The notes beneath the pieces are model-generated. The model ran no database searches, was not told where the DNA came from, and saw nothing but the letters and a program-made list of their open reading frames with translations. DNA of 48,670 bases. Origin: an uncultured Caulobacteraceae bacterium. GTDB lineage: Bacteria; Pseudomonadota; Alphaproteobacteria; Caulobacterales; Caulobacteraceae. The position numbers were made by a program, and so were the translations under genes. Numbering within the stretch: the first letter of the stretch is position 1; the number at the start of each line of letters is the position of its first letter. Shown piece after piece: positions 6,970 to 45,409 of the stretch. The DNA lies in NCBI GenBank assembly GCA_903923135.1, contig CAIXWN010000049.1, positions 1 through 48,670 on the forward strand, in the 5' to 3' direction.

Positions 6970-7090
6970 CACCTAGGGCAAACTCCGACCAGATGGACTC
7001 ATCTGGTCGGAGATAATTTGCCCTAGAGTCAAAAACTTAGAGCCTTTCTGATCCGATCTTATTGTTGCAATCAGATCGGGAAAGGCTGTA
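6970..7090 (-). repeat. Dispersed double-hairpin element, copy A
   Basis: This roughly 120-base element is nearly identical, in reverse complement, to the segment at 45289-45409. The first hairpin (6973-7026) has an outer arm CTAGGGCAAA / TTTGCCCTAG, an inner perfect 13-bp arm CTCCGACCAGATG / CATCTGGTCGGAG, loop GACT, and one ATAA bulge. The second hairpin (7041-7087) has arms AGCCTTTC...CCGATC and GATCGG...GAAAGGCT. It lies between two convergent genes (alcohol dehydrogenase and caspase-like protease) and takes up much of the 333-base gap 6865-7197, in which I see no gene. It may act as a bidirectional terminator or a REP-like sequence. GANTC sites occur at 6996-7000 (loop) and 7026-7030. 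Confidence 0.8.
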
Positions 7091-7197: not shown

Positions 7198-8613
7198 TCA
7201 GTCCGGACCGCCGCGAAGGCGCTTGCAGGCCTCCGCCGTGCGAGGATCGCCCGGGTCGCCGTGGTTGCACATGTAGTCGTCCGAAGCGCCGTAGCGGCCG
7301 GCGGGCGCGGCGAAGGTCGACGGCGCGGGCGGTCTCGGCGCCGGTGCCTGGTCCGCGGCGATATAGCCGCCGACGCCGCCACGCGAGCCCCCGGCGGCCG
7401 GCGCGGCGTTCCTTGCGGCCTTTTCCGGGGCCGCGGCCGGCGTGAGAGCGGCGATCTTGGCCCGCGCGGCGCGGACGAACTGTCCCGTCGGATACTGGTC
7501 GATGTAGGCGTTCAGCTGGGCCGCGTCGTTGCTGGCCGACACGCTGTTCCAGAAGGCCAGCTCCATCGCCCGCGGATCCATCCTGGCGGGCTCGGCCGCG
7601 CCGCGGTCGGCGACGCTCCTGGCGGCCGGAGCCGGGTGCTCGATGGCGGCGATCCGGGCCCTGGCCAGCTCGACGAAACTGCCGTTCGGGTAGCGGTTGA
7701 GATAGGCCCGCAACAGGCTGATGTCGTTTCCTGCCGAAGCCGACTGCCAGAACACCGTTTCCACCGAGCCCTGATCGTCTGCCGCGACGGCGGCGGCGGC
7801 CCGGGACACCGGACCAGCGGCGCCCGGCGCAAGCATGAAGGGCTCGCCCGTGATGCTGGCGCTGATGAAAGGCCGTTGCTGCGATCCGGTGGCGCGCAGG
7901 ACGTCGTCGCGGACGAGGCCGCCGAGCAGCTGGATGGGCAGGCCCGGCTGTGTCAGGCGCTGGGCCAGGGCCTCGGCAAAAGGACTGTTGGCGCCGTGGC
8001 CGTCGGAAGCCGTCTGCCCCGGCGCGGCCGAATAGATGACCAGCACATCGTCGACATCAATGGGCGCCAGACCCTGGCCGACGGCGCGCTGGGTGCGCTT
8101 CCAGGCGTGGCCGAAGGGGTTGTTGCGGCAGGCGTCGAGAACCACGACCCGCATGTCCGCCCCCTCGGTGGCGCTGAGCACGAGGTCGAGGTCGATGGCC
8201 TCGTAGTCCAGGTCGGCGTCCTGCTGGAGCATGGCGTCGGTGGGAATCAGCCAGTTCTTGCCGCGCGCCTCTATGCCGTGACCGGCATAGTAGATCAGCG
8301 CCACCTGGGCCCCGACGGCGTTGGAGCGGAACCGACGCAGGGCGTCGCGGAACGGCCCGATGCCGAGATTGGGGTCGGCGTCGACGATCTGGAAGCCGAC
8401 CCTCTTCAGGGCCGAGGCGACCAGGCTCGCGTCGCTGACAGGGTTCTTCAGCGACCCGGCGTGCAGATAGGCGCCGTTGGCCACGAGCAGGGCCACGCGG
8501 CGCGTCGGCTCAGGACCGGCGGCGGCGGCCGGGCGGCCGACGGCGAGGAAAACCAGCGTCGCCAGCACCATGATCGCCAGCCACAGGCCAGCCGGACGGG
8601 CGGCGCCCGGCAT
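7198..8613 (-). CDS. Secreted caspase-like protease (peptidase C14 family) with C-terminal cysteine motif
   Basis: Read from the ATG at 8613, this is 471 residues. A hydrophobic signal or anchor segment (about 8-32) sends it to the periplasm. The caspase fold spans about 36-265, with catalytic His112 (YYAGHGIE) and Cys162 (VVLDACRNNP). Two copies of a short helical repeat follow: ETVFWQSASAGND...YLNRYPNGSF at about 285-325 and MELAFWNSVSASND...YIDQYPTGQF at about 350-390. A Pro/Ala-rich linker leads to a terminal motif (441-468) containing SDDYMCNHG and PRTAEACKRLRG, which appears twice more in the lipoprotein encoded just upstream. An alternative TTG start at 8643 would overlap that gene's stop codon; ATG 8613 gives a better signal peptide. 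Its substrate is unknown. Confidence 0.85.
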   Translation of the reverse strand: MPGAARPAGLWLAIMVLATLVFLAVGRPAAAAGPEPTRRVALLVANGAYLHAGSLKNPVSDASLVASALKRVGFQIVDADPNLGIGPFRDALRRFRSNAVGAQVALIYYAGHGIEARGKNWLIPTDAMLQQDADLDYEAIDLDLVLSATEGADMRVVVLDACRNNPFGHAWKRTQRAVGQGLAPIDVDDVLVIYSAAPGQTASDGHGANSPFAEALAQRLTQPGLPIQLLGGLVRDDVLRATGSQQRPFISASITGEPFMLAPGAAGPVSRAAAAVAADDQGSVETVFWQSASAGNDISLLRAYLNRYPNGSFVELARARIAAIEHPAPAARSVADRGAAEPARMDPRAMELAFWNSVSASNDAAQLNAYIDQYPTGQFVRAARAKIAALTPAAAPEKAARNAAPAAGGSRGGVGGYIAADQAPAPRPPAPSTFAAPAGRYGASDDYMCNHGDPGDPRTAEACKRLRGGPD

Positions 8614-8639
8614 GGTCTGCCCGTGTGGCCGCCAGGCGA

Positions 8640-9065
8640 TCAACCGCCAGGCCCGCGCAGCCGGCGACAGGCCTCGACAGTGCGGGGCTGGCCGGGCTGA
8701 CCGTGGTTACAGACGAAATCGTCGGAATCGCCCATGCGGCCCTGGGCCGGCGACGGCGCGGCCGTGCCGGGGCCACGCAGCCGGATGCAGGCCTGGACGG
8801 TGCGGGGATCGGCCGGATCGCCGTGGTTGCAGAGGAAGTCGTCGGAGTCTCCGTAGCGCGGGTAGGACGAAGGAATGGCGGCCTCGGGCGGAGACAACGG
8901 GGCCGCGTCCGCCTGGGGCGGCGGGGCGTTCACCGGAGGCGGCGGCGCGGACGCCTGGCCGGCCCCGGAGGGGCCCGGCGGAGGCGCGCTGGCGCAGGCG
9001 GAGAGCAGCAAGGCGAAGGACAGGCCCGCGAGGAGGGTGATCCTGGTCAGGTCGTGGCGTCGCAT
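8640..9065 (-). CDS. Lipoprotein with two tandem two-cysteine motifs shared with the caspase-like protein
   Basis: This is a 141-residue lipoprotein. The signal peptide ends in a lipobox, LLLSAC, with Cys24 as the lipidated residue. A Pro/Ala-rich stretch (25-70) follows. Then come two 28-residue copies of one motif, at 71-98 and 111-138, spaced exactly 40 residues apart: SDDF-x-CNHG and PRTV-x-AC-x-RLRG. The cysteines are C79/C93 and C119/C133, each pair separated by 13 residues, as expected for a disulfide within each motif. The same motif ends the caspase-like protease encoded 26 bases downstream, so the two form an operon. I do not recognise the motif as a named family. It could be a binding module, a protease target or a protease inhibitor (inference). 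Confidence 0.8.
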   Translation of the reverse strand: MRRHDLTRITLLAGLSFALLLSACASAPPPGPSGAGQASAPPPPVNAPPPQADAAPLSPPEAAIPSSYPRYGDSDDFLCNHGDPADPRTVQACIRLRGPGTAAPSPAQGRMGDSDDFVCNHGQPGQPRTVEACRRLRGPGG

Positions 9066-45281: not shown

Positions 45282-45288
45282 ACGCAGC

Positions 45289-45409
45289 CTGGAGCCTCGC
45301 CCGATCTGATTGCAACAATCCGATCGGATCAGAAAGGCTCCAAGGTCCTGAATTCAGGACAAATCATCTCCGACCGGATGATTCCATCTGGTCGGAGTTC
45401 GCCCTAGGA
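45289..45409 (+). repeat. Dispersed double-hairpin element, copy B
   Basis: Nearly identical to the reverse complement of 6970-7090, this copy fills the gap between convergent shc and htpG. The first hairpin has arms GGAGCCT (45291-45297) and AGGCTCC (45335-45341), with inner CCGATC/GATCGG and GATTG-caa-CAATC stems. A 16-bp perfect palindrome GTCCTGAATTCAGGAC (45345-45360) follows, specific to this copy. The second hairpin, CTCCGACCGGATG / CATCTGGTCGGAG (45368-45397), has loop ATTC. GATTC (GANTC) at 45380-45384 falls in the loop. The htpG stop codon lies inside the CCCTAGG end of the element. Confidence 0.82.

Follow-up and report, generated by a model that had tools for sequence, protein, structure and literature searches.

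A two-cysteine motif shared by a caspase-fold protease and its neighbouring lipoprotein in an uncultured genus of Caulobacteraceae

Caspase systems and the present locus

Alphaproteobacteria are rich in caspase homologues (PMC3501461), and the portion of that paper used here describes no means of placing or controlling exported homologues. The orthocaspase subtype is defined by a p20 domain without a p10 domain, and orthocaspases cleave after positively charged residues, according to the sections of PMC6426788 used. EADs and bacterial Death-like domains are presented, in the parts of PMC7159879 and PMC8195603 considered, as small, mostly helical modules that occur in effectors such as caspases and in their operon partners, for which homotypic contact is proposed, and which belong to conflict systems of several components that include regulatory NTPases such as STAND or MoxR. 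The term "signal peptide" has 0 mentions in these two papers; "periplasm" and "lipoprotein" have 0 and 0 mentions in PMC8195603 and 2 and 1 in PMC7159879. The part of PMC7159879 considered also outlines the EACC1 system, a two-gene unit with a membrane-associated 5' gene and a caspase second.

The gene pair reported here lies in a window of 48,670 nucleotides (the whole stretch of DNA analyzed) from an uncultured Caulobacteraceae bacterium. It encodes a lipoprotein with two copies of a short two-cysteine motif, modelled as a hairpin, and a C14 peptidase (PF00656) with one copy. The peptidase resembles the orthocaspases in its caspase fold, His-Cys dyad, alphaproteobacterial origin and extra C-terminal domains. 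It differs in its C-terminal cysteine hairpin and in the hairpin-bearing lipoprotein beside it, neither of which is described in the parts of PMC3501461 and PMC6426788 used. As in EAD and Death-like systems, the same module is found in an effector protease and its operon partner. The present module appears to differ from those domains as a two-helix, cysteine-bearing and apparently exported unit, and it has no Pfam match. No regulatory NTPase of the STAND or MoxR type was found in the seven flanking proteins scanned at the homologous loci (L080-L082), whose flanks include a DEAD-box helicase and a biotin carboxylase, not of this kind, or among the window neighbours, which were judged by eye. 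The unit shares the two-gene layout of EACC1, but the 5' product there has one conserved transmembrane helix, whereas here the 5' gene encodes a lipoprotein. Membership in EACC1 was rejected, as NF047832 scores 45.2 bits against a cut-off of 140. A PADLOC scan of the two proteins gave one caspase profile match (24.9 bits, E 2.6e-6) and none for the lipoprotein. We tentatively read the hairpins as an extracytoplasmic docking module that would keep the protease, whose specificity is probably for Arg/Lys, at the outer membrane, and we give this reading a little less than an even chance.

The gene pair and its shared motif

The lipoprotein gene (8640..9065, minus strand) encodes 141 amino acids, with a lipobox LSAC at residues 21-24 (Cys24; read by eye), a Pro/Ala-rich linker of about 45 residues and two hairpins. 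GAGGAG lies 5' of its ATG, and a consensus scan for a sigma-70-type promoter or a terminator at the gene pair found none. Its stop codon overlaps the TTG start of the protease gene (7198..8643, minus strand) in the 4-bp sequence TTGA (8640..8643, minus strand). The overlap is ATGA in the homologous pairs of genomes G002 and G015, and a gap of 67 nt separates the genes in G014; the operon proposed in an earlier, sequence-only reading of this DNA rests on this overlap or close spacing. Both products are apparently exported, as that reading also proposed, judging by eye from the lipobox and from a hydrophobic segment at the N-terminus of the protease. In the three homologues that have an N-terminus the lipoboxes read LSAC, LAAC and LTAC, and the lipoprotein is most likely located in the outer membrane. 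Residues 10-45 of the G015 lipoprotein, outside the motif, give a sub-threshold match to DUF6491 (16.4 against 27.5 bits).

The protease is a putatively secreted cysteine protease of 481 amino acids from the TTG, or 471 from an alternative ATG at 8613, ten codons inside. It consists of a signal peptide-like N-terminus, a Peptidase_C14 domain (residues 48-265; E 1e-27, 97.8 bits against a gathering score of 21.4), two W-x-S helical repeats (about residues 291-335 and 357-400, as placed by a low-confidence structure model), a Pro/Ala-rich linker and the C-terminal hairpin. The catalytic dyad, His122 (GHG) and Cys172 (DACR), is invariant in all four caspases of the pair. Mean pLDDT of the AlphaFold model is 46 overall, and 60-73 in the tail. 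Asp71 and Asp170 are aligned to aspartates of MALT1 that shape a basic S1 pocket, and the protease probably has a basic P1 specificity. Further C14 proteases are encoded in the window's own genome (L020, L029); one on contig C10 is followed by apparent Sel1-type repeats, and another on contig C254, which runs off the contig end, has the W-x-S repeat in common.

The motif spans roughly 27 residues. In the lipoprotein, copy 1 covers residues 72-100 (8766..8852, minus strand) and copy 2 residues 112-140 (8646..8732, minus strand). The protease copy covers residues 452-479 (7207..7290, minus strand; GASDDYMCNHGDPGDPRTAEACKRLRGG). The sequence-only reading had reported both reading frames and all three copies, a spacing of 40 residues within the lipoprotein and 13 residues between the two cysteines of every copy, all of which is borne out. 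Its coordinates for the protease copy, 441-468, agree with numbering from the internal ATG; numbering from the TTG starts the copy at 452. Together with the homologues, 13 copies were found in five genomes, with the consensus GDSDD[FY]xCNHGxPGDPRTVxACxRLRG. D4, D5, C8, A21, C22, R24, L25 and R26 are invariant in all 13, and G27 is present in 11. With the profile, the 13 true copies reach per-genome E values of 7e-16 to 2e-20 and the next-best match across the eight genus genomes searched scores 0.016; thus, the motif is not a chance resemblance. In line with the sequence-only reading, which could name no family for it, the motif has 0 matches in Pfam. A known domain is not supported by a PDB profile search either, which gave four short partial matches, to photolyases and ExsE (E 0.4-0.8). 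A structure search with the lipoprotein model gave 0 matches at E <= 0.001, the consensus matched plasmids once (E 3), and none of the titles and abstract openings listed from open-access papers describes the motif.

In all four caspases the only cysteines are the catalytic one and the motif pair. The three lipoproteins with an N-terminus have the lipobox cysteine and two motif pairs only, and the truncated fourth has two pairs. One disulfide per hairpin, in an oxidizing compartment, is likely, because every cysteine that is neither catalytic nor part of a lipobox belongs to a motif pair. AlphaFold, run with four sequences, places two helices in each lipoprotein copy, with pLDDT block means of 75-89 (residues 74-81 and 87-97 in copy 1 and 114-121 and 127-137 in copy 2). 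A separate model of the caspase also has two helices in its copy (455-461 and 467-476), at lower confidence. Structure prediction had been suggested as a way to see whether each copy folds as a disulfide-linked unit; a two-helix hairpin was predicted for each, and we infer the disulfide link.

The invariant RLR and the Gly that usually follows it lend themselves to another reading, in which the hairpin is a substrate tag and the caspase would cut after the second Arg, before this Gly, thereby releasing either the hairpins of the lipoprotein or its own tail. MALT1 cleaves after Arg before Gly, and MALT1 accounts for all 10 PDB sequence matches of the caspase with E up to 0.1. Cleavage by orthocaspases after basic residues (PMC6426788, in the sections used) also fits. 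However, RLR is kept in genome G010, where no C14 peptidase was found, it lies inside a helix of the model, and its invariance is shared by DD, the cysteines and A21, which suggests a folded unit. We consider cleavage at the motif quite unlikely.

A different reading arises from some exported alphaproteobacterial TPR proteins, whose N-terminal segment likewise has two cysteines, 11-14 residues apart, the second within an A/G-C-T/S segment. The hairpin might be a mere stable cap or ancestral spacer, perhaps kin to this segment, with no coupling role. Alignment with six such segments gives an hhalign probability of 41, a score reached by 2, 0 and 5 of 200 column shuffles in three controls. This profile similarity is only marginal, and the comparison is post hoc and weak, as six of 10 matches supplied a segment and the pattern used found no such cysteine pair in the others. 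In addition, a repeat array follows the segment in TPR proteins, whereas no TPR array follows the motif and the lipoprotein has no TPR match. Conservation of the motif also far exceeds that of the flanking linkers. The likeness is a lead only, and we regard a mere cap as rather unlikely.

Distribution, surroundings and ancestry

The pair, with two motif copies in the lipoprotein and one in the caspase, is present in 4 of 16 genomes of this genus of uncultured Caulobacteraceae (G000, G002, G014 and G015), and a fifth, G010, has one lone copy. C14 matches in the genus number 19, spread over 8 of the 16 genomes; four of these matches carry the motif, and all four adjoin the lipoprotein gene. The sequence-only reading had set two outcomes against itself, a known common periplasmic domain found mostly without caspase-like partners and a gene pair that is not conserved. 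Neither came about: what was found is 12 of 13 copies within the caspase-lipoprotein pair, and a pair kept in four genomes. The four species are related, so that this conservation does not represent four independent events.

Profile searches covered 199 family, 299 order, 385 class and 398 phylum genomes, in overlapping draws, with at most 41, 27, 21 and 20 first-look candidates scored per genome, respectively. The underlying alignments held 3 of the 13 copies for the family search (A1), 11 for the genus, order and class searches (A2) and all 13 for the phylum search (A8). Outside the genus, the searches at these four levels gave weak matches only (E 1e-4 or worse), none of them credible. Matches at E <= 0.01 outside the genus occurred in 9 of 298 order genomes, against 3 expected by chance, and in 4 of 384 class genomes, with G062 in both. 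Further weak matches were seen in G114 (3.4e-4) and G850 (1.7e-4). A pattern scan of 22 weak-match loci, the genus included, found a stretch for 14, and eight loci (seven places, G114 twice) were inspected closer. The G114 match lacks the second cysteine, the G850 match the first and L056 both, and these were rejected. Three weak matches have two cysteines 13-14 residues apart. Two of these, L053 (G627, E 0.001) and L051 (G268), were rejected, lying antisense to longer frames of 804 and 645 amino acids. The third, L060 (G735, E 0.009; near 1500-1563), from an order-level relative, terminates a frame of 348 aa that lies opposite another of 591 aa, and either frame may be the gene; its C-terminus, with two cysteines 13 residues apart and then ARLRD, is weakly motif-like. 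In a pattern-and-tblastn scan of GTDB r220 that used the lipoprotein alignment, 37 candidate stretches came up. Three of them encode a relative, and these lie on Caulobacteraceae MAG contigs, probably those of G002, G014 and G015. As far as searched, the motif and the pair are restricted to the genus.

Within the genus, the pair occupies at least three genomic contexts. For example, the pairs of the window and of G015 lie near the same PQQ alcohol dehydrogenase (89-90% identity) and acyl-CoA dehydrogenases, with the PQQ dehydrogenase on the same strand as the pair in G015 and on the opposite strand in the window. The G002 pair is flanked by an Lhr-type helicase and a mechanosensitive channel. 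The G014 pair has a biotin carboxylase on one side only, the contig beginning inside the lipoprotein gene. Since the surroundings differ between genomes, the pair stays together while its context changes. Several related caspases without the motif end, by eye, in apparent Sel1-type repeats or other regions; thus, proteases of this class have a modular tail.

An intergenic repeat of about 115 bp lies just downstream of the caspase gene (6973-7087), with two hairpins and a GANTC-bearing joining segment. It has 48 matches in this genome, partial ones included, 9 of 10 aligned copies carry GANTC at the linker, and a second copy in the window (45283-45408, minus strand) is 85% identical. The repeat fits the Caulobacter methyltransferase-associated CIR repeats, as outlined in the part of PMC2229807 used.

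At the DNA level, the window's three copies share 71-77% identity; pS is 0.47-0.65 and pN 0.14-0.18. Within the limits of 26 codons, these values agree with the selection on the protein claimed in the sequence-only reading and indicate that the copies are under purifying selection. Grouping the copies by position is the single best of 216 relabelings (mean identity 0.743 against an average of 0.714; four species, three positions), and position 6 is Tyr in all four caspase copies. Because the position labelling exceeds all other relabelings, the 2+1 layout was probably already present in the common ancestor, with each position keeping its own features.

The lone copy in G010 is part of a 315-aa protein (L019, 1360-2307), where it comes after an N-terminus that resembles a signal peptide; the protein has cysteines in its middle segment and ends in Imm_superinfect (PF14373, E 3e-16). 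This protein is unrelated to the caspase and the lipoprotein and appears to be exported and membrane-anchored. G010 yielded no match to a C14 peptidase and no second strong motif copy, and homologues of the protein outside the genus match only in a region ending in Imm_superinfect. Therefore, the motif can serve without a caspase partner, and this copy is the weightiest argument against confining its role to the caspase pair. It also raises a reading in which the caspase, the lipoprotein and the G010 protein each use the hairpin to bind a common third ligand in the envelope (peptidoglycan, a glycan, a metal or another protein), so that co-localization would arise without direct contact between caspase and lipoprotein. 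The fixed acidic DD and basic RLR could form the binding surface. However, nearly all copies belong to the pair, and no known binding domain matches the motif in Pfam or the PDB profile search; we judge a shared ligand possible but somewhat unlikely.

A proposed docking module at the outer membrane

Direct docking, our preferred reading, is supported by the conserved pair, its 2+1 layout, the differing gene surroundings, the confinement of cysteines to motif pairs and the two-helix models. The lone G010 copy, the low confidence of the caspase model and the kinship of the four species stand against it. Under the docking reading, the motif would be a minimal extracytoplasmic module of two short helices, a tight turn and one inferred disulfide. 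The lipoprotein would display two hairpins on a flexible Pro/Ala-rich stalk, most likely from the inner face of the outer membrane, and the secreted protease would carry one on a similar flexible tail. Contact between hairpins would dock the protease onto the lipoprotein, at two sites per lipoprotein, and would concentrate, and perhaps activate, the protease at the envelope, in the manner proposed for small helical adaptor domains that recruit caspases in other systems. The idea of the sequence-only reading, a protease and a membrane-anchored partner recognised through the same module, is thus partly supported, and a role in signalling or defence would be a further conjecture. If docking is right, the unit may follow the EAD principle in another compartment and with another fold. 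A still broader claim, that a disulfide-pinned two-helix module brings a caspase-fold protease together on a lipoprotein of the outer membrane as an extracytoplasmic counterpart of caspase-recruiting adaptors, with an origin independent of Death-like domains and EADs, is unlikely on present evidence.

The caspase-lipoprotein pair is real, conserved and without a family name. Its narrow distribution, in one uncultured genus, limits the reach of the finding. A coupling function of the hairpins is plausible, and their arrangement suggests that they hold the protease in place at the outer membrane. A two-gene unit with matching modules would make the recruitment of an exported caspase-fold protease testable.
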